Shown here piece by piece: positions 220 through 29,306 of a DNA stretch of 29,306 nt. The position numbers and the translations under genes were made by a program. Numbering within the stretch: position 1 is the stretch's first letter; each line of letters begins with the position of its first letter. The notes below the pieces were generated by a model, which saw only the letters and a program-made list of their open reading frames with translations, was not told where the DNA came from and ran no database searches. Origin of the DNA: a virus; the IMG/VR virus record IMGVR_UViG_3300025655_000199, positions 1-29,306 of that record, one strand, 5' to 3'.

Positions 220-307
220 AGTGAGATGATGCACTAGTTTACTCATTGACTTCTAGGAAAAGACTAGACATAAGAGAGGTAGATCATCCTACGCTCTCTT
301 TTTTTAT
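220..307 (+). ncRNA. Structured 3' RNA element, copy A (tandem hairpins plus terminator)
   Basis: Three stems can be drawn. AGTG/CACT (220-223/232-235) encloses a loop with GATGAT (225-230). TCTAG/CTAGA (252-256/264-268) has loop GAAAAGA. A long stem, AGAGAG-GTAG (273-282) with CTAC-(bulged G293)-CTCTCT (289-299), has loop ATCATC (283-288) and is followed by a T run. It matches the element at 12127-12252: U280-A291 is replaced there by C-G and A273-U299 by G-C, and the one-base bulge on the 3' arm is kept. The GATGAT and ATCATC loops are complementary in both copies. Here it forms the 3' UTR of the plus-strand cassette ending at 217. Function unknown; it could be a stability or processing element, or an sRNA released from the 3' end. 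Confidence 0.7.
273..307 (+). terminator. Intrinsic terminator of the right-end plus-strand cassette
   Basis: A 10-bp stem interrupted by a single bulged G, hexaloop ATCATC, then a run of T from 299. It ends the transcript that begins upstream of the kinase-like gene (27751) and passes 28376-28654 and the 41-aa ORF. In the right-hand copy only the 3' arm and the T run remain (28660 onward), which shows that the right-hand variant is the deletion derivative. Confidence 0.8.
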
Positions 308-357
308 TTCTAATAAAACGAAATTTCTTAAATATAAGATACTTTATAAAAAGTATT

Positions 358-4123: not shown

Positions 4124-6433
4124 TTAGCAAGTGCCGCTAGTGTTATATGTTGATAGGTTATAATTTGCCATTAGCCAACCATTGTTTGATCCATCAAAAC
4201 TTGAAATGTATACAAATTCCCAAATAGCCCAACCACTACCGGGTACTTCTCTTACACAAGTAAGTGTTGCACCTCCAGCTTGTGCGTTTGGAATATCACC
4301 TGGATGTTTGAAATCCGAACCAAAGGTTACAGTAAATTGGGTACTGCTATTATAAACACTTATACGAAGCATTTGACCGTTTTGGAATGTACCAGTTGGA
4401 TTATTAATTGTAAACGCAGAACTAGCAATTACATGATAATGTGGATAATCACCCGGTACTGGCGTAAAGGTTGTGGTTTTACTTGCATCAACTTTATAAC
4501 CATGTGGACCTCTATGCATTTGGTTAATCTTAGCGCTGTTTGCAATATTGTTAGTATCGCTAGCACCTATCATAATAGTATCTGTTGCAGTGGCATTAGC
4601 TTCACGACCTATAGCAATAGCTCTCGTAGCAGTACCAGTCGCGACATGTCCTATAACTACGGCGCTTCCACCAGATACAGTAGCAGCTGCTCCAAGTCCA
4701 ATAGCATCTTGTGCACTATTATTAGCATTGGTACCAATCATGATTGATCCACCACCTACGCTATTTGTTACTCCAGTTCCAATTGTAATTCCGTAAGTTG
4801 CATTGTTTCCATTTGCGTTACCTCCGATTGATACTGCGAATTCTTCTGCTACTGCAAAACCTCCAATGGCAACAGCATCTGTACCTGCCGCTTCACTATT
4901 ATTTCCTATTGATACACTTCTAAGACCTGCTGCGTTTCCTGCTGTACTAGCTGCAAAAGTTGAGCTTTGCATTGCATTTGTTCCAGTACCTGGTACTAAA
5001 CCTGCGTTTCCTGCCGAACCTTGTGCTCCTTGTGCTCCTTGTGCTCCTGCTGCTCCAGTAGCACCAGTGGGACCTGCTATACCCTGTGGACCTTGTGGTC
5101 CAATAGGTCCAGTATGTCCAGTAGCTCCAGTGTGACCGGTATGTCCTGTATGTCCTGTATGACCAGTTGCACCTGTATGACCTGTATGACCTGTGTGTCC
5201 AGTTGCTCCAGTAGCACCTTTTGCTCCAGTATGTCCAGTTGCTCCAGTATGTCCAATAGGTCCAGTTGCACCAGTATGTCCTGTGTGTCCAGTATGACCT
5301 GTATGTCCAGTAGCGCCGGTTGCACCTTTAGCACCTGTAGCACCTTTTGCTCCAGTATGACCAGTAGCACCTGTGTGTCCTGTATGACCAGTGGCTCCAG
5401 TAGGTCCAGCAACACCCTGTGCTCCTTGGGCTCCAGTTGCTCCTGTTGCACCAATTTGTGAGTACATCACTTGAGAAAGTTCAACAGAGCAAGAAGCGGC
5501 ATCTGGAATACCTACACCTGTAGTTGCATCAAGTGATAGATCTGTTGAAGTTCCTTGCCAATAGATTTGCACATAATCGTTTGGAGAAATCGATTGACCA
5601 ATAAACATGAAATTGATAATCGTTTCCGAAGGAGTAGCAGGATTCTTTTGCTGTTGTACAGTTGCATAGTGTGCAGAATCTGGGTAATCAACTCCATTGA
5701 ATTTCAACCAAAACGTTACATCTTCTGGTTGGTTACTTATGTTTGCAATCAAGAAGGTAGCACTCATTCGGTAAACACCTACATTTGCAATAGTAATCTC
5801 ATCTCCATTTTGAATTGAGATACCATTTGAAATAGAAGTGGAGTTGATAGTGATTACCTGTGGTGTCCCTGCGACAGCGATTGGTTGGTCTGTGGTATCA
5901 AAGAATGCGCCGTAGTATCCAATCGCACCACCTGCGCCTTGAGGTCCAACGGGACCAGTTGCACCGGTTGCACCTTTAGCACCAGTAGCTCCAGTAGAAC
6001 CAGCGCCCGTTGCTCCTTTAGGTCCAGTTGCTCCTTGTGCTCCACTAGATCCAGTTGCACCTTTTGCTCCTTGTGAGCCCTGTGCTCCAGTTAAACCTGT
6101 AAAACCTTGAGCACCTTGTGCACCTACACTACCTTGTGTACCAGCGCTACCTTGTGGACCTTGTGGACCTTGAGGACCACCAGCAGGGCCAGTAGCACCA
6201 GTAGAACCTTTTACACCTTGGAAACCTTGTGCTCCAATGTTACCTAATACAGTTGCACTAGTTACATCAACTACATCGGTAAATGTAACAGTGGTATCGG
6301 ATACCTCCATTGGAAGTGGATTACCTACACCATCTGTAAGCGGTTGTGATGTAGCAGATAACGCGGCATTATCCTCGGTTTTAATTAAGCCTGGATATGT
6401 GTCCTGTATCTTATTATTTGTTAGACTTGCCAT
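4124..6433 (-). CDS. Collagen-like / C1q-like / YadA-head-like tail or head fibre, 769 aa
   Basis: Modular fibre. Residues 1-65 form the attachment region. Residues 67-169 are a first Gly-X-Y collagen-like stretch. Residues 170-325 are a C1q-like jelly roll ([27 protein letters not shown]). Residues 327-479 are a second collagen-like stretch very rich in GAT and GHT triplets. Residues 500-625 contain SVSIG, AVAIG, AIGLG, AIAIG and IMIG repeats at roughly 14-residue spacing, typical of the left-handed roll of YadA-type trimeric adhesin heads. Residues 640-769 are a globular tip. All these modules are trimeric in their known families, so a trimeric fibre for host binding is likely. Start is seven bases after the stop of the preceding gene. 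Confidence 0.8.
4559..4936 (-). repeat. YadA-head-like repeats within the fibre gene
   Basis: Encodes fibre residues 500-625. Degenerate repeats of about 14 residues end in (A/S)xxIG, for example [39 protein letters not shown] and DTIMIG. In YadA-type adhesins such repeats form one coil each of a trimeric left-handed parallel beta-roll that binds host surfaces or matrix. The repeats are diverged at DNA level, so they are old. Confidence 0.7.
4997..5455 (-). repeat. Collagen-like repeat block 2 (Gly-His-Thr rich)
   Basis: Nine-base repeats encode Gly-X-Y triplets (fibre residues 327-479). About 17 triplets are GHT, mixed with GAT, GAK and GPI. The DNA is low complexity (on the plus strand, repeated variants of CCAGTATGTCCTGTATGA) and is a likely site of repeat-number change by slippage or unequal recombination. 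Reading-frame shadows rich in Ser, Cys and Met on the plus strand are an artefact of this block. Confidence 0.85.
5927..6235 (-). repeat. Collagen-like repeat block 1
   Basis: Gly-X-Y triplets at fibre residues 67-169, rich in GAQ, GPQ, GAK and GAT, without the His-containing triplets of block 2. Together the two blocks flank the C1q-like domain. Confidence 0.8.
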
Positions 6434-7015: not shown

Positions 7016-7348
7016 ATGATAAAAGAAACACCTGAAGTACCTATTAGAATTGCAGCATTTTTTGCTTTATCTACAGAAGGTATTGCTTTAATTGAGCATT
7101 CAACCGAAATTAACGTTTATATAAAAACTTTACAAAAGTATTTTACTATACGTGGTATTAAATGGAATCCCGTATGGTATACTGACAAACAGACTGAAAA
7201 GAAAACAATGATTTGTTATTTTTGGACTAATAAAGACTTTCAAATCTTTGGATTTACTAAACATCGTAATAAAGAGGGAGAAATAACAACATACCCATTT
7301 CATTTACAAGATATCGTTAAACCCTTAATTGTTAAAGGGGTTTTTTAA
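7016..7348 (+). CDS. Unknown protein of a plus-strand cassette, 110 aa
   Basis: The open frame extends back to 6917, but that would overlap the start of the minus-strand gene at 6931 and encode an atypical AT-rich leader. The ATG at 7016, preceded by an A-rich stretch, gives MIKETPEVPIRIAAFFALST and is preferred. The protein is basic with TTYPFHLQDIVKPLIVKGVF at the C-terminus. No catalytic motif recognised. The gene stands alone and ends two bases before a tandem-hairpin terminator. Confidence 0.65.
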   Translation: MIKETPEVPIRIAAFFALSTEGIALIEHSTEINVYIKTLQKYFTIRGIKWNPVWYTDKQTEKKTMICYFWTNKDFQIFGFTKHRNKEGEITTYPFHLQDIVKPLIVKGVF

Positions 7349-7350
7349 GG

Positions 7351-7396
7351 TCTAGTATTTTACTGCTAGATACAGGTCGCTTCGGCGACCTTTTAT
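7351..7396 (+). terminator. Tandem hairpin plus UUCG terminator
   Basis: TCTAG/CTAGA (7351-7355/7366-7370, loop TATTTTACTG), a four-base spacer, then GGTCGC-TTCG-GCGACC (7375-7390) followed by TTTT. The layout, and the sequence CTAGATAC after the first hairpin, match the element at 12200-12252, although the second hairpin is a plain terminator here. Confidence 0.8.
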
Positions 7397-7458: not shown

Positions 7459-7477
7459 GTTAATCAAGGTGGTTAAC
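7459..7477 (+). promoter_or_regulatory. 5' leader hairpin, copy 1
   Basis: GTTAATC (7459-7465) pairs with GGTTAAC (7471-7477) around loop AAGGT, with a U-G pair in the sixth position. It starts about where transcription should begin. Compared with the copies at 23477 and 23851 the stem sequence differs but pairing, the wobble position and the A-A-R-G-U pentaloop are kept. Likely protects the 5' end or binds a regulator. Confidence 0.65.
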
Positions 7478-7502
7478 AAAAAGTTCTTTAAAATATCATA
7501 AA

Positions 7503-8036
7503 ATGGAACAAACAAAAGCAGCTAGCAGTACAAAATCAAAAACAACTGCTACTAAAATGACTGTCAAAATGAATTCATTGGACATGTCAAAGCCGGAGAT
7601 CAATAAAATGGTTACCAAAGTAATTAACCACGATCCTGTTGTTAATGCTTCCGAACAAACCTTTTCATTACCTGCAACATTGGAAATGGAAAAAGTAGTA
7701 CGGAAATATAAAATTCAACATGCTCATTATCGTGTAGTTATCCAACAAAATAACGATAATTATAAGGTATTCATTCTTATTAATCGCAAGGCAAATGAGA
7801 AGTTCTTTAAAGATAACTTTACGGTACAGCGCAAAAAAGCATATCTTAACGTTACTGAATTTAAAAATGATTCAAAACGTATTGGACGTACGGTTAAATT
7901 TGAACAACTATCAAATGTGTTAAATAAGTATAATGAAATTTTGCTTACTTATAACACAACTGTTGAAACTCAAAACGTTGCTAAGGTAGAAAAAGTTGAA
8001 ACTGCAGCAAAAGAACTTTTGAATTCAATGGAATAA
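7503..8036 (+). CDS. Unknown basic protein, 177 aa
   Basis: ATG at 7503, 25 bases after the leader hairpin. The N-terminal 25 residues are low-complexity Lys/Thr/Ser/Ala (MEQTKAASSTKSKTTATKMT) and look disordered; the central part (about 60-150) is mixed alpha/beta with many Lys and Asn residues; the C-terminus is a helix (KVEKVETAAKELLNSME). The charge suggests nucleic-acid binding, but no known domain is visible. It is the largest product of the short plus-strand cassettes, and is flanked by its own promoter, leader hairpin and terminator. Confidence 0.75.
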   Translation: MEQTKAASSTKSKTTATKMTVKMNSLDMSKPEINKMVTKVINHDPVVNASEQTFSLPATLEMEKVVRKYKIQHAHYRVVIQQNNDNYKVFILINRKANEKFFKDNFTVQRKKAYLNVTEFKNDSKRIGRTVKFEQLSNVLNKYNEILLTYNTTVETQNVAKVEKVETAAKELLNSME

Positions 8037-8098: not shown

Positions 8099-8120
8099 CC
8101 TTAAAAAAATATAGAATGGC

Positions 8121-8135
8121 TCTAGTCTTTCCTAG
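8121..8135 (-). other. 3' UTR hairpin sharing an exact 15-mer with the 12200 RNA
   Basis: Read on the minus strand this is CTAGGAAAGACTAGA, identical to 12201-12215 on the plus strand, and to 253-268 apart from one extra A. CTAG pairs with CTAG around loop GAAAGA. It sits two bases after the stop of the tail-tube-like gene and about 20 bases before its terminator, the same relative place as in the plus-strand elements. Confidence 0.6.
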
Positions 8136-8137
8136 TG

Positions 8138-8674
8138 TCAAGCTTCTACAACAGTAGAGTCTATTTCAAACATTGGATTAGATTCATAACCTGAGATCGT
8201 TAGCGTATAGCCATTGCGATCTCCGTATGCCTGTCCTGTGCCATTAGATCCAGCAGACATTTCTGCCCCTTTCTCTAATCCACATGACCAATATCTACCA
8301 TTGTTGTCTTTTACTACCACCAAAAGCTTGGTGTTTTGTGCTAGTAATAGTAGTTGATTGCGGGTGTTACATTGTAATTTATTGAACACTAGCGCTACAT
8401 CTTGCTGGTACCATACGGTTCCATTTTCTTGTGATACATTCACAGTTTCTGTATAGCTTGAGCTCTGCTTCGGTACTTCAAATTTATAGAAGCTACCGGT
8501 AGTAAGAGCTACTCCGCCAACATAAATTGCATCAATTTCACAAGTTGATCCAGACACTAAATCATAAGTTACAGCACCATCCGCATTCGCTACAAATACA
8601 TATTCGATTCCACCCACATTGTCTCGGCAATCTAGTGGAATATTACTGGTTATTGCGCAAGCAGATAAACTCAT
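8138..8674 (-). CDS. Probable major tail (tube) protein, 178 aa
   Basis: Beta-rich protein with an N-terminal DCRDNVGGIEYVFVANADG pattern, a central FEVPKQSSSYTETVNVSQEN region and a C-terminal YGDRNGYTLTISGYESNPMF. I recognise this layout from abundant virion proteins beside the capsid gene in Bacteroidota siphoviruses, where it fits a tail tube subunit: about 180 aa, strand-turn-strand with a GxxxxGYTLTxxG ending. It follows the major capsid gene, separated by 50 bases, and ends the run. A head decoration protein is the main alternative. Confidence 0.55.
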   Translation of the reverse strand: MSLSACAITSNIPLDCRDNVGGIEYVFVANADGAVTYDLVSGSTCEIDAIYVGGVALTTGSFYKFEVPKQSSSYTETVNVSQENGTVWYQQDVALVFNKLQCNTRNQLLLLAQNTKLLVVVKDNNGRYWSCGLEKGAEMSAGSNGTGQAYGDRNGYTLTISGYESNPMFEIDSTVVEA

Positions 8675-11237: not shown

Positions 11238-11583
11238 AACTATTTTACATACGACCTAGGCGCAACCCTAGAGCAAATTTAAATTCCTAAGCAATTAGGT
11301 GCCGAAACCGTAAGATCTCGGATGAACTTTCTACGGGCTCAATATGAGTTGTTCGAGTTTGGAATAGACATAATAATTAGACCCATTGAAACGGCCCGCG
11401 AAACTTTTGTAAGTATTTGGAGCGCCCTAGCGGATATCCCTTCAATCGGCATTACTCTTTTTTAAAAAATTAAACTTACAGCAGCGGGCGCATGGTTCAC
11501 TTGAAATACCAAATAAAAAAAATAAGTTCTGGTTTAAACCAAATAAAATAAAGGAACTTTATAAGATGTATTCAAAAGTGTGA
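11238..11583 (+). pseudogene. Disrupted protein-coding region of about 115 codons
   Basis: One frame encodes YDLGATLEQI, stops at TAA 11280-11282, and continues as IPKQLGAETVRSR then MNFLRAQYELFEFGIDIII... to TAA at 11463-11465. At the six-T/six-A run (11458-11469) a +1 shift leads into a frame reading KKLNLQQRAHGSLEIPNKK and on to TGA at 11581-11583. The residues look like real protein throughout. Intact parts are the 47-aa ORF 11322-11465 and the tail frame. Explanations: a decaying gene, sequence errors at homopolymers, or, less likely, a programmed +1 shift. I do not recognise the protein. Confidence 0.55.
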
Positions 11584-11597
11584 AACACTTGAATACA
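11567..11597. terminator. Hairpin between the disrupted ORF and the 137-aa gene
   Basis: TGTATTCAA (11567-11575) pairs with TTGAATACA (11589-11597), and after a two-base bulge GTG pairs with CAC around loop TGAAA. It lies between convergent frames (stops at 11583 and 11606). The flanks are AT-rich rather than a clean T run, so termination strength is uncertain. Confidence 0.5.
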
Positions 11598-11605
11598 GAT
11601 TAAAG

Positions 11606-12019
11606 TTACTCTTCGTATACCCAGTACTTTAAATTAAGTAATACTTCAATTGGTTCGTCGTTAACAACAGTTAACACTTGAAACCAATTCACACCATCAA
11701 CATCCTTAAACACTGTTTGAAGAACACCTTGAGTTGGATGTAAACCTTGTTTATATTCCTTCTTGATTTGAGCAAGTAAATCTGCATTGGGTGCACTACC
11801 TCTTGGATATACCTTTACCTTTCTACCACATGAAAACGAGTTAAGAACTTGATCTATAATGATTGGTTCTTCGTCGTTTTCAATCCAAATCTTTTGATTA
11901 AAAAAATACTCATCTTCGTCGTCTACGACGAAAGCACCGGTAGGTGCTAAAAATGGTACATAATTATCTTCTGGTATATACCTTGTATTAGGACTTGGAT
12001 AGGGATAGGTTTTTTCCAT
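11606..12019 (-). CDS. Unknown protein, 137 aa, in the head-gene region
   Basis: ATG at 12019. Acidic and proline-rich N-terminus (MEKTYPYPSPNTRYIPEDNY), then beta-rich segments (EEPIIIDQVLNSFSCGRKVK, VLQTVFKDVDGVNWFQVLTV). No known motif. It lies alone between the head protease and the NUMOD-like gene. About 210 bases separate it from the protease, a space that holds the plus-strand RNA at 12127-12252. It may be a virion or assembly protein by position. Confidence 0.6.
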   Translation of the reverse strand: MEKTYPYPSPNTRYIPEDNYVPFLAPTGAFVVDDEDEYFFNQKIWIENDEEPIIIDQVLNSFSCGRKVKVYPRGSAPNADLLAQIKKEYKQGLHPTQGVLQTVFKDVDGVNWFQVLTVVNDEPIEVLLNLKYWVYEE

Positions 12020-12089: not shown

Positions 12090-12122
12090 GTTTTTTTAAT
12101 TCAATATTTTGGTTTATATTTA
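12090..12122 (+). promoter_or_regulatory. Promoter of the free-standing RNA
   Basis: TTTTTTTAATTC (about 12092-12103), then TATATTTA (12115-12122) and four bases (CACT) before the first hairpin at 12127. This matches 23441-23472 (T run, TATATTTA, CACT, hairpin) closely. Confidence 0.7.
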
Positions 12123-12126
12123 CACT

Positions 12127-12252
12127 ATCTTTAGGATGATATAAAGATAAAGATTAGTGTTCATTCATTTGAATTTTAGTTTTTGATTTTAATTTGACTT
12201 CTAGGAAAGACTAGATACGGAGAGGCAGATCATCCTGCACTCTCCTTTTTTT
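12127..12252 (+). ncRNA. Free-standing structured RNA of about 125 nt (copy B)
   Basis: Promoter upstream and terminator at the end, with no ORF between. Stem 1: ATCTTTA/TAAAGAT (12127-12133/12142-12148), loop GGATGATA. A U-rich linker follows. Stem 2: TCTAG/CTAGA (12200-12204/12211-12215), loop GAAAGA. Stem 3: GGAGAG-GCAG (12219-12228) with CTGC-(bulged A12239)-CTCTCC (12235-12245), loop ATCATC, then seven T. Loops 1 and 3 are complementary (GATGAT with ATCATC), allowing a kissing interaction. Copy A (220-307) keeps the pairing through compensatory changes. The 3' end overlaps the last codons of the convergent head protease gene, so it is also antisense to that mRNA's end. Confidence 0.7.
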
Positions 12253-14233
12253 CTTTTACCATTTCACCAAAAAAACCTTCAACAGAAAAACCTTTGATTT
12301 TACCCTGTTTAATTAAATCCCAACTTGTATTATCCATAACCCTCATAGAGATCATCCAAGTCCCTTTGGGTAACTTAAAGCCCATCGCTTTTGACTTATC
12401 CATTTCGGGATCTTCAATAATCCAAGACTCGTATACATAGTTCTTTTCTCTTACATCTTCGGTATCATGCTCAATGTTTGTTTGATTGAGCTTCATTTGT
12501 CTCATGAATTTTTCCGCGATTTGACGTATTGTATCTTCGGTAAAATAAACGTAATACTTAGAACCATCCTCTGCTTTACGAGGTATTTCAATATCGGGAA
12601 TCATTGCTGGACCTGTTACAATACGTTTATCCTCTGCAAAATGGTAATCTGCAGTTGTAACAGGATAATCGCTAGCCATTCGTCTACGAACTCTATAAAA
12701 ATTATTACCCGGATTTGCTATGTCACCTGCGATACCAACAGCAGGTCCTTTATTTTCTAATTTATTATCTGTTACATTAACATAATACTTTTGCCAGCGA
12801 TGCTTACAGTTAACGCCTCCTTTGTATTTCCAAATAGAATATGTAGATGTACCACCTTCACCAAACCCTGCGTTAACCGCAATGTTTTCCATTTCTTTAA
12901 TATCTTGATAAGTATACCAACGGTTAAGTTGTATCATTTGTCTACAAAACTGTCTCTCTGGTGTAGGCCCTTCATACTTATAAACTGTAAATCCTGTATC
13001 TTTACCTGCATATTCTTTAAGATCTTCAATATCATTTGAATTACCAATATTAGGGGCAATCTCTGCGTTTGCAAATGCTTGATGTGGATACCCTAAACGA
13101 GCAGCAGCAAACAGTATTGCTCTTGTAACTAAATCATCCTTTTTATCTTTATCCTTTGTTATTTCGTCAACATAAACCGGTAAACCCGTTGTATCAATTG
13201 TAAAATCTTGATCTGGGATATATTCGGCAATCACATCTAAATGCCCAGTCATATATGATACGTTATGATACATTTTAAGCTGTTCGTCAATTTCAACAAT
13301 TAAATCCATGAAATCATTAACAAGTATACTTGCTTCGTATAAATCATTAACCGTTGCGTGTTTTTCCGTAATTGCTTTTTGTTCAATACCAAATACAGTA
13401 TCCGCTAAAATTGCAGCGCTGCGTATCATACCCGCAACCTCTTCGTCTGGATTCATTGCAATTAAATGCTTAAAGGTTTTTTGGGCGCCGGGACACAATT
13501 TAAAATGACGTGTTGTATAACCCAATACATCCATTTCGCCTTCGGTTAACTCTGCCATTGACATTCGGATTTCTTCCAATTTGTTTGATGCCCACTCAAT
13601 TCCTGCAGTACCACCCCAAGCATCCCACATTAATCCACCGCAGCCTTCGCTATATGGCGTATCGCTGTTTTGTTTGTGACGAGCAAAGGATGCCATACGT
13701 GCAATTGTTTCTTCGCTTATATTTTCACGTTTTGCCAATTGGTTTGCACGTGCCCATCCAACAGGAGTACCACACTTTTGATCTGGGTTTTTGTCTCGCC
13801 ACTTTAAAGCGCGTTTAGCGGCATTTGTTGCAGATTCTGGGTAATCATTATAAGTTTCAAATTTCTCGGCAGACGATTTAACTGGCACACAATTAGGCAC
13901 CATTTTACCACCCTTACCAGGCTTTAAACCAATTGCTTCGTAACCTGGCCAACACGCATCTTCCAAACCCTCAAATTGTGCTTCACCCTCCCAATAAGAA
14001 TAGCATACAGCTAAACGTTGATCCTCTTCTGGAAACTCACCAGACAGATCACTCATACAGCGACCAATGAAATCACCTTCATCTTCCCCTGCTCTAGGTT
14101 CTACAAATCTCTCTTCCTTGAAATATAAAAACGTTTCTTCGATAGCAGGATTTTCTACTAATGCGATAGCATCAACGCCTAGTTTAAGGTTGTCATCCTC
14201 TGCTATTACTAATTCAACTACTCTTTTGTTCAT
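12230..14233 (-). CDS. XkdF-like head maturation protease with extra domains, 667 aa
   Basis: The C-terminal 170 or so residues fit the XkdF-type phage protease: GPAMIPDIEIPRKAEDGSKY, LNQTNIEHD with the probable catalytic His, then PKGTWMISMRV and KIKGFSVEGFFG with the probable catalytic Ser. The N-terminus (LGVDAIALVENPAIEETFLY) is also typical. Between them lie GRCMSDL...AVCYSYWEGE, a CGTPVGWARANQLAKRENIS segment common in phage proteases, and FCRQMIQLNRWYTYQDIKEM...STYSIWKYKGGVNCKHRW. It would remove scaffold and trim capsid. Start overlaps the tape-measure stop by four bases. At 667 aa it is longer than the family's usual size, reflecting several accessory domains. Confidence 0.75.
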   Translation of the reverse strand: MNKRVVELVIAEDDNLKLGVDAIALVENPAIEETFLYFKEERFVEPRAGEDEGDFIGRCMSDLSGEFPEEDQRLAVCYSYWEGEAQFEGLEDACWPGYEAIGLKPGKGGKMVPNCVPVKSSAEKFETYNDYPESATNAAKRALKWRDKNPDQKCGTPVGWARANQLAKRENISEETIARMASFARHKQNSDTPYSEGCGGLMWDAWGGTAGIEWASNKLEEIRMSMAELTEGEMDVLGYTTRHFKLCPGAQKTFKHLIAMNPDEEVAGMIRSAAILADTVFGIEQKAITEKHATVNDLYEASILVNDFMDLIVEIDEQLKMYHNVSYMTGHLDVIAEYIPDQDFTIDTTGLPVYVDEITKDKDKKDDLVTRAILFAAARLGYPHQAFANAEIAPNIGNSNDIEDLKEYAGKDTGFTVYKYEGPTPERQFCRQMIQLNRWYTYQDIKEMENIAVNAGFGEGGTSTYSIWKYKGGVNCKHRWQKYYVNVTDNKLENKGPAVGIAGDIANPGNNFYRVRRRMASDYPVTTADYHFAEDKRIVTGPAMIPDIEIPRKAEDGSKYYVYFTEDTIRQIAEKFMRQMKLNQTNIEHDTEDVREKNYVYESWIIEDPEMDKSKAMGFKLPKGTWMISMRVMDNTSWDLIKQGKIKGFSVEGFFGEMVKEKKESAG

Positions 14234-23440: not shown

Positions 23441-23495
23441 TTTTTTTATTACGAAGATTTGTATTATATTTACACTGTAATTCAAAGTGGATTAC
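23441..23495 (+). promoter_or_regulatory. Cassette promoter and 5' leader hairpin, copy 2
   Basis: TTTTTTTATTAC (23441-23452), TATATTTA (23465-23472), four bases, then GTAATTC (23477-23483) pairing with GGATTAC (23489-23495) around loop AAAGT. The stem has a U-G pair in the sixth position, as in the copy at 7459. Confidence 0.7.
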
Positions 23496-23519
23496 AACGT
23501 TCATTTAATTTTTTTAATA

Positions 23520-23773: not shown

Positions 23774-23806
23774 ATAGGTGCTCTAGAAATAGGGCACCTA
23801 TTTTTT
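23774..23806 (+). terminator. Terminator after the 83-aa gene
   Basis: ATAGGTGC (23774-23781) pairs with GCACCTAT (23794-23801) around a 12-base loop, followed by a run of T. It begins three bases after the stop. Confidence 0.85.
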
Positions 23807-23813
23807 CACAAAA

Positions 23814-23869
23814 GTTTTTTTAGTTCACGTTTATGTATTATATTTGTATTGTAATTCAAAGTGGATTAC
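23814..23869 (+). promoter_or_regulatory. Cassette promoter and 5' leader hairpin, copy 3
   Basis: TTTTTTTAGTTC (about 23815-23826), TATATTTG (23839-23846) matching TAnnTTTG, four bases, then GTAATTC (23851-23857) and GGATTAC (23863-23869) around loop AAAGT. The 19-base hairpin is identical to that at 23477. Confidence 0.75.
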
Positions 23870-23894
23870 ACCTAATGCCTAATAATTAACACTA

Positions 23895-28375: not shown

Positions 28376-28654
28376 ATGACAGAAGAGCATACCTCATTTA
28401 TTAACGCCATTAGCAATATTTACGAGTTTGTTGGTTATAATGCCGATGAAAATATTCTTGTATTTTATGAGCTGTTTGACGGTAAAGCAGATCCCGATTA
28501 TATTTCTTATGTTGTAATTGAAGACGGATACTGTACTGTTGATTACATAGTCGGACCTAAACAACAGTACCATGATTATAAGGAATTAGGTTGGGCCGAA
28601 ACGGAATTTGAACTTAGCGATTGGTTCAAACTTTCGGCCTTTCAATCCAAATGA
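28376..28654 (+). CDS. Small unknown acidic protein, 92 aa
   Basis: ATG at 28376 after an A-rich leader. Strongly acidic (MTEEHTSFINAISNIYEFVG; ELGWAETEFELSDWFKLSAF), with no known motif. An acidic small phage protein could be a DNA mimic or inhibitor, but nothing specific supports this. Cotranscribed with the kinase-like gene. The 3' end is repeated at 1-95, where it couples by ATGA to the 41-aa ORF; here that ORF is broken by the 191-base deletion. Confidence 0.7.
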   Translation: MTEEHTSFINAISNIYEFVGYNADENILVFYELFDGKADPDYISYVVIEDGYCTVDYIVGPKQQYHDYKELGWAETEFELSDWFKLSAFQSK

Positions 28655-28728
28655 AAGCACGCTCTCTTTTTTTATTTCTAATAAAACGAAATTTACTAAA
28701 TATAAGATACTTTATAAAAAGTATTTAA
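28651..28728 (+). pseudogene. Truncated remnant of the 41-aa ORF fused to terminator sequence
   Basis: ATG overlaps the TGA of 28376-28654 as in the left copy, but after three codons the deletion joins the frame to the old terminator 3' arm and runs on to TAA at 28726-28728, giving 25 aa of AT-rich sequence. Probably not functional. Confidence 0.5.
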
Positions 28729-28756
28729 GGTCATCTAGTTTTATTAGATGGCCTTA
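28726..28756 (+). terminator. Hairpin terminator, right copy
   Basis: Equivalent to 358-388: TAAGGTCATCT and AGATGGCCTTA around loop AGTTTTATT, with one G-U pair in plus-strand RNA. In this variant it is the first remaining terminator for the plus-strand cassette. Confidence 0.6.
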
Positions 28757-28821
28757 GATTATTGCTTTTATTAAAGAATAAACGTAGCTTTTCAATGTTA
28801 CGTTCTGTAGCTTTTGTAGGT

Positions 28822-29306
28822 TTATAAACCTCCTCCTGCTGGGTATACAACCGGGTAATCTTCATAACACCAATTTGATCTTCGTCCGTAAATTATTGGA
28901 CCGTATGTATTTGTTGAAGGCATTGAAAACTGTGATGATGCCTGTTCATTACGATCTGGAACAATTCCTTTAAAATCTGGAGAAACATATTCGGGATACA
29001 AATAATTGTATTGAACAAGATGATTGCGTAACCTGTCCGAATAAAAGGTTGCTGTATTCAATTGATCATTACGTAAGTATTGAAACTCTTCTAATGAAAT
29101 TGTATTAGCAGTTTCGCTTGATGGAGAAAGAACGCTTTTATTAAGTAACTTCCATTTAATATTAGGTAGTATACGCCAAACTGCTTGGTTTAATAAAAAC
29201 GGAGCAATAAACTCATTTATTAAATTTGTTTCATCAACCGATAGAGTATTTGCTAAAATACGTGCTTTAAGACCATCATAAAACTTAGAACCAAGTAGGT
29301 TTTGTA
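28822..29306 (-). CDS. Connector-like protein, second copy, 5' end beyond the window
   Basis: Same protein as 454-1056, cut by the right edge; the visible part encodes the C-terminal 160 or so residues. Thirteen base differences from the left copy: twelve at third codon positions without amino-acid change, one giving Ala to Thr in STNAYG/STNTYG. The reading frame is intact. Confidence 0.8.
   Translation of the reverse strand, partial: QNLLGSKFYDGLKARILANTLSVDETNLINEFIAPFLLNQAVWRILPNIKWKLLNKSVLSPSSETANTISLEEFQYLRNDQLNTATFYSDRLRNHLVQYNYLYPEYVSPDFKGIVPDRNEQASSQFSMPSTNTYGPIIYGRRSNWCYEDYPVVYPAGGGL

Follow-up and report, generated by a model that had tools for sequence, protein, structure and literature searches.

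A candidate small RNA unit without an open reading frame in a Bacteroidetes-type phage, and a hairpin it shares with other phages

Introduction

Phage non-coding RNAs are poorly catalogued, and gene-based annotation passes over cassettes that hold no open reading frame (ORF). One such stretch lies at positions 12090–12252 on the plus strand of the virus record IMGVR_UViG_3300025655_000199, all 29,306 bases of which were analysed and are called the window here. What would this stretch make, if not a protein? The record codes for a portal, a large terminase, a tape measure protein and a head protease, and we read a further product as MCP-like from the gene order. The minus strand carries the late genes, the plus strand a set of small cassettes. 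The phage is a Bacteroidetes-type tailed phage.

Layout, ORF absence, folding, insertion relative to the nearest relative, and the recurrence and covariation of one hairpin were all read from the DNA. With somewhat less than even confidence, we propose that 12090–12252 is a small inserted transcription unit making a non-coding RNA of about 120–125 nt. This RNA would most likely act as an OOP-like antisense RNA, and the hairpin that it shares with other phages most likely binds a conserved partner.

Architecture of the unit

The promoter region (12091–12126, plus strand) was assigned by consensus. It contains a −7-type element, TATATTTACA, at 12115–12124 with a T-rich stretch upstream, and it belongs to a four-copy repeat family (D7). 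In alignment it matches three coding cassettes of the window and two cassettes of the relative L030. The pattern TATATTTRYA occurs six times in the window, against 0.88 expected, and none of 100 shuffles got to six. TAnnTTTG is the known Bacteroides −7 promoter consensus (e.g., PMC7366714). The promoters of this phage appear to carry a Bacteroidetes-like −7 element of the TAnnTTTG type, here TATATTTRYA. The match to the host-type promoter is only partial, because the strict pattern TTTG-N19–23-TAnnTTTG is not enriched in the window.

Positions 12091–12146 are one of four copies of a 56-nt repeat made of this promoter and a leader hairpin, and the other three copies precede ORFs at 7503, 23520 and 23895. 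A preliminary description of the locus had likened its layout to that of the coding plus-strand cassettes, and the repeat confirms the likeness. The 5′ leader hairpin of the unit, AUCUUUA-GGAUGAUA-UAAAGAU (12127–12148, plus strand; −3.9 kcal/mol, z −2.6), is placed as the leader hairpins of the coding cassettes are. The latter hairpins (7462–7480, 23475–23497 and 23850–23870 in the window, and those of the L030 cassettes) keep the loop UCAARGUGG and vary in their stems; this loop may be a ribosome-related or stability signal.

The same description held that the cassette has no ORF, and none of at least 40 aa is present on the plus strand of 12090–12252, where direct reading gives at most a 9-codon GTG frame. 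The sequence supports a stand-alone unit of putative transcription that follows the plan of the coding cassettes and lacks an ORF.

The predicted RNA (12127–12252) folds with −35.7 kcal/mol (z = −4.27), a value that none of 200 shuffles equalled. Stems are present as described earlier, and their number is four rather than three: 12127–12148, 12149–12184, 12200–12215 and 12219–12245. The second is an AU-rich imperfect hairpin (12149–12184, plus strand) found in both the MFE and the centroid structure. It is weak alone (z −2.1 for 12149–12198), and no relative of it was found. The third belongs to the shared hairpin discussed below. The fourth is the stem of an intrinsic terminator, GGAGAG-GCAG-AUCAUC-CUGC-A-CUCUCC-U7 (12219–12252, plus strand; −16.7 kcal/mol, z −4.6), which from 12230 onward overlaps the end of a 667-aa gene on the opposite strand.

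GATGAT (12135–12140) in the first loop is complementary to ATCATC (12229–12234) in the terminator loop, as had been noticed before. A match of at least six between any two of four loops of such sizes arises in about 0.5% of random cases (a chance of about 0.005), for a match singled out post hoc.

No Rfam family fits 12090–12252, in line with the earlier remark that it was not recognised as a known RNA family. When the full cassette was compared with phage records and 14 relatives, no homologue was found except a promoter piece in L029. A search of viral contigs for the terminator core, GAGGYAGATCATCCTRC, gave chance matches only.

Insertion between two late genes

The cassette is flanked by two minus-strand genes. 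The 667-aa protein (12230–14233) is of the head protease type, with PHROG head maturation protease matches, and its C-terminal tail gives way to another one where the cassette begins to overlap it. On the other side is a 137-aa gene (11606–12019). Protein-led scans for nearer relatives gave one good relative (L018/L030/L034) and none in species genomes; the 206-aa kinase-like neighbour had no relative in these scans.

L018 is the closest relative, with 61–86% protein identity across the neighbouring genes. There the stop of the protease gene is at 7796, and the homologue of the 137-aa gene, which comes next, begins at 7774 or 7786, so the two overlap and the unit is absent, whereas the window has a 210-nt gap that holds the cassette. 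DNA homology picks up again at 12260, directly beyond the T-run of the terminator. The protease tail is GEMSPAEKDEELYNQIRNLVASWNGK in the relative and GEMVKEKKESAG here, and the terminator, read in antisense, supplies the final codons of GEMVKEKKESAG. Among more distant relatives, almost nothing separates the protease gene from the scaffold gene after it.

Since the closest relative lacks the unit and its two flanking genes overlap, the unit has the look of a moron-like cassette that was inserted in antisense orientation to the late operon. Phage morons are accessory cassettes with their own promoter and terminator. The unit resembles them in being inserted between genes that overlap in one close relative, in lying on the opposite strand, and in having its own promoter and terminator. 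Morons encode an accessory protein, whereas the unit has no ORF. If the unit is real, it shows that morons can carry RNA in place of protein.

A strong plus-strand terminator inside a minus-strand operon could also act as an insulator, with the promoter–terminator pair blocking or balancing transcription between opposed units and the RNA itself having no role. Few plus-strand genes read toward the unit, however, and the shared hairpin and the loops would go unexplained, so we consider an insulator highly improbable.

A 3′ module also found at an mRNA end

Within the record, blastn showed the unit to be homologous to 246–309 only (85%, E 1.3e-12). The common part comprises a CUAG hairpin and the terminator. 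In this copy B (246–309, plus strand) the hairpin has a 7-nt loop, GAAAAGA, and is followed by the terminator AGAGAG-GUAG-AUCAUC-CUAC-G-CUCUCU (−11.4 kcal/mol, z −4.2). Between the two terminators, direct reading shows that GCAG/CUGC changes to GUAG/CUAC and the basal G-C to A-U. Pairing is kept both times, and the loop AUCAUC is unchanged.

Copy B closes an mRNA. The ends of the record overlap, and the end of the ORF 28376–28654 is therefore present again at the record's start. After this ORF come a 41-codon ORF (92–217) with an ATG overlapping the preceding stop (ATGA), and then GATGAT, the hairpin and the terminator. This GATGAT (222–227, plus strand), found by direct reading and folding, is complementary to the copy B terminator loop. 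The arrangement folds differently from 12127–12252, and more weakly. The preliminary description had set 220–307 beside the unit as a second copy for a covariance model; the homology is real over 246–309 only (85%), with its own GATGAT and ATCATC loop, and this copy is the 3′ end of an mRNA rather than another free-standing RNA. It had also expected the stems to be kept by paired changes. Such changes support the 3′ module (the unit against copy B) and the CUAG hairpin (27 phage sequences) only, and not the 5′ and AU-rich stems, because no full-length homologue was found. The reading of a private two-copy RNA is corrected: judged from its parts, the unit is a mosaic. Its leader is common to coding cassettes, its middle is unique, and its 3′ module also occurs at an mRNA 3′ end and includes a hairpin found again in phages of several bacterial phyla. 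A look-alike 3′ end at 7351–7390 (plus strand), after an ORF ending at 7348, has a TCTAG-N10-CTAGA hairpin followed by a terminator and lacks the GGAAAGA core.

The ends of the record overlap (1–938 and 28560–29306), with 101 nt at 100% and the rest at 97% (20 mismatches in this remainder). The end copy of the overlap is without 102–290, a variant missing the 41-aa ORF and copy B of the module. The overlapping ends represent either a circular genome with a deletion variant or two strains assembled together.

The mosaic build bears on the main rival explanation, in which the unit is a decayed coding cassette: a moron that lost its ORF by deletion, so that the 5′ leader was fused to a 3′ end, with an RNA perhaps still made and inert. 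An ORF-less remnant would be expected to look as the unit does, with a 5′ part that aligns with coding leaders and a 3′ part that aligns with an mRNA 3′ end. The variant with 102–290 deleted suggests that such deletions do occur in the population, and the unit is not conserved in relatives. Two features of the 5′ part speak against decay. The 5′ 59 nt alone, with the terminator excluded, fold better than all 200 shuffles (z = −3.54). The 5′ loop departs from the coding-leader type UCAARGUGG and reads GGAUGAU, matching the terminator loop. We regard decay as possible, if rather unlikely.

A hairpin shared among phages

The 3′ half of the unit carries an element of the form UGACU(G/U)-NUAG-GAA(N)AGA-CUAN′, with the outer pair kept. 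In the unit it reads UGACU-UCUAG-GAAAGA-CUAGA (12195–12215, plus strand) and scores 38.2 bits with the R1 model (E 1.3e-6 in 342 kb), a model that contains 12195–12215 itself. A third copy in the window, copy C (8118–8143, minus strand; R1 25.2 bits, E 0.0026), also folds and lies just past the stop of a 178-aa gene, before a terminator at 8102–8071. The pattern CTAGGAAAR-N0–3-CTAG occurs three times in the window (12201 and 253 on the plus strand, 8135 on the minus strand), against none in 100 shuffles, each time immediately upstream of a terminator.

Outside the window, the pattern TTGACN{1,2}CTAGGAAAN{1,2}ACTAGA matched eight stretches in viral contigs and three in species genomes. Every match carries the exact GGAAAGAC, although that letter and the gap were left free in the pattern. 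Searches by blastn with 31–45 nt queries found the hairpin in phages of Acinetobacter, Cellulophaga, Vibrio, Streptococcus, Microbacterium and others; together, the carriers are phages or prophages of Streptococcus, Vibrio, Acinetobacter, Cellulophaga, Microbacterium and Providencia, and a crAss-like phage. Phage records hold one to three copies, and the window is dense with three in 29 kb. Cultured phages with a single copy include Cellulophaga phi19:3 and Streptococcus thermophilus 5093. The R1 model gave two matches in the Providencia host (the L041 and L043 places) and none in 59 other genomes of the same family. Chance matches of the model are rare, judging from these 59 genomes and from L049, a virus record of 38.9 kb in which the L041 place is found again. 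One hairpin query had no match in E. coli genomes.

The base pairs covary. In an alignment of 27 phage sequences (A3), 94.8% of cells are paired around a loop of 6, 7 or 8 nt. The covariation score reaches 0.320, where shuffles gave 0.110 (0 of 500 as high) and sliding gave at most 0.078; kinship among sequences also inflates such scores. The second pair is C-G, A-U or G-C, the outermost G-C, U-A or G-U (unpaired in 7 of 27), and the third U-A or U-G. Some A-U and G-C members were found with queries spelling those variants. The change at the second pair is not a search effect, because phi30c and phiS10 (G-C) and K249 (A-U) came from a C-G query.

In 16 of 18 annotated records viewed the hairpin is fully intergenic; it overlaps the last codon of a capsid gene in one and lies under a doubtful small ORF in another. 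A few further records have a hypothetical protein annotated at the hairpin. Wherever the upstream gene is shown, the hairpin has its orientation. In Streptococcus phages it precedes scaffold or portal genes, and in phiS10 an unnamed gene in the same region. In several phages it adjoins tRNAs.

A phage tmRNA (RF00023 match) around 4462–4819 (minus strand) of L033 includes UUGACUUCUAGGAAAGACUAGA, the same 22 letters as in the RNA of the unit. Six Acinetobacter phages of 45-kb and 95-kb types (L051, L053, L055, L061, L067 and L068) have non-coding tracts of about 300–1000 nt, some with embedded tRNAs. These contain common blocks (e.g., GCAACTATTCGCACGTTGCCGATCAAT, GAAGTGAA...TTCACTTC) together with the hairpin, match nothing in Rfam except tRNA, and are a candidate large structured phage RNA. 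In the crAss-like phage cr128_1 (L070), 1272–2798 spans 1.5 kb without annotated protein genes, with tRNA-Arg on both sides of one hairpin copy.

Several simple roles were considered and rejected. Many copies begin with a possible start codon, giving a coding reading NTG ACU NNU AGG AAA GAC UAG (M-T-x-R-K-D-stop), but the stem pairs persist in copies whose frame is broken, by a spacer deletion or by a loop length that varies among 6, 7 and 8 nt. A set of stop codons covering every frame is lost in the G-C and A-U variants. In a CsrA site the GGA would be partly paired. A rule that a terminator always follows the hairpin holds in this phage and in two Streptococcus phages but fails in general.

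The last observation bears on the idea that only the hairpin and terminator are functional, as a general transcript-end or processing element, with the small RNA a by-product or a decoy for the hairpin binder. The hairpin stands right before terminators at three transcript ends here and in the two Streptococcus phages, and many other phages carry it in contexts that differ widely. Elsewhere, however, it is usually away from terminators, inside longer non-coding tracts or leaders, and we consider this explanation improbable.

Apart from the tmRNA case, no Rfam family covers the hairpin. Its core in a phage context was not found in the literature searched, a body with subscription journals mostly outside its coverage. 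The hairpin is too small to be a class of system; it is a specific, testable RNA element, apparently undescribed. It weighs more than the unit itself: a covarying element of 22 nt turns up in phages that are not related to one another, and its settings include a tmRNA, the surroundings of tRNA islands and positions before scaffold genes. Recurrence in such varied settings suggests a common RNA-binding partner, seemingly unnamed, an idea that can be tested in cultured phages. A broader version, which we advance only tentatively, is that UGACU-NUAG-GAA(N)AGA-CUAN′ is a phage-wide recognition element (in phages of Firmicutes, Proteobacteria, Bacteroidetes and Actinobacteria) for a single conserved partner supplied by the host. 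The phage studied here would employ it both where mRNAs end and in a small RNA dedicated to acting through the hairpin.

Proposed role of the unit

In the antisense reading that we prefer, the unit would be a moron-like cassette without a gene, composed of a promoter with a 5′ hairpin, an AU-rich stem, a hairpin widespread in phages, and a strong terminator. The hairpins at both ends would protect the RNA, and their loops could kiss. The RNA would be complementary throughout to the late structural mRNA where the head protease gene ends and the leader of the 137-aa gene lies. A duplex formed at this junction would open it to cleavage as double-stranded RNA or keep the downstream gene from being translated. 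As for the shared hairpin, its most likely function is to bind a conserved partner (a protein or the ribosome), and this partner would stabilise or process the transcript. The antisense role is proposed from the position of the unit. A duplex scan of the RNA against the phage translation starts found none beyond shuffled RNA (best z −1.7), and hence no sign of trans targets.

Lambda OOP RNA overlaps cII by 52 bases and ends at tO, and RNase III-dependent cleavage has been proposed (PMC5869508). Like OOP, which was compared by description, the unit would make a short phage RNA from its own promoter (here by consensus) to its own terminator, without an ORF, on the strand opposite to an operon and overlapping the end of a gene (here 12230–12252 over the ORF 12230–14233). 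It differs in that the coding overlap is only 23 nt, the operon is a structural one of a Bacteroidetes-type phage, and the shared hairpin is extra; the Rfam search gave no match for the unit. The large phage RNAs GOLLD and ROOL are held together by kissing loops (PMC12286853). As the unit's product would be, they are phage non-coding RNAs; they lie near tRNA islands, and in other phages the shared hairpin also lies in long non-coding tracts with tRNAs; unlike the unit, they are several hundred nt long. No Rfam model, those of GOLLD and ROOL included, had a match in the window, and in the tRNA-linked loci only tRNA and tmRNA models matched. Taken as a small RNA between a promoter and a terminator, the unit's product has counterparts among known phage RNAs; the novelty lies in the insertion of a unit without an ORF and, on a wider scale, in the hairpin.

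Other features of the record

A near-perfect hairpin, UGUAUUCAA..UUGAAUACA (11555–11610, plus strand; z −3.7), lies between an ORF at 11322–11465 and the 137-aa gene and is not terminator-like. A 769-aa fibre protein (4124–6433, minus strand) has long collagen-like GxT/GxP repeats in 9-nt units. A terminator with GGUGCUCUAGAAAUAGGGCACC at 23774–23806 is 97% identical to positions 1059–1090 of L030, and the genes that precede it differ between the two phages.
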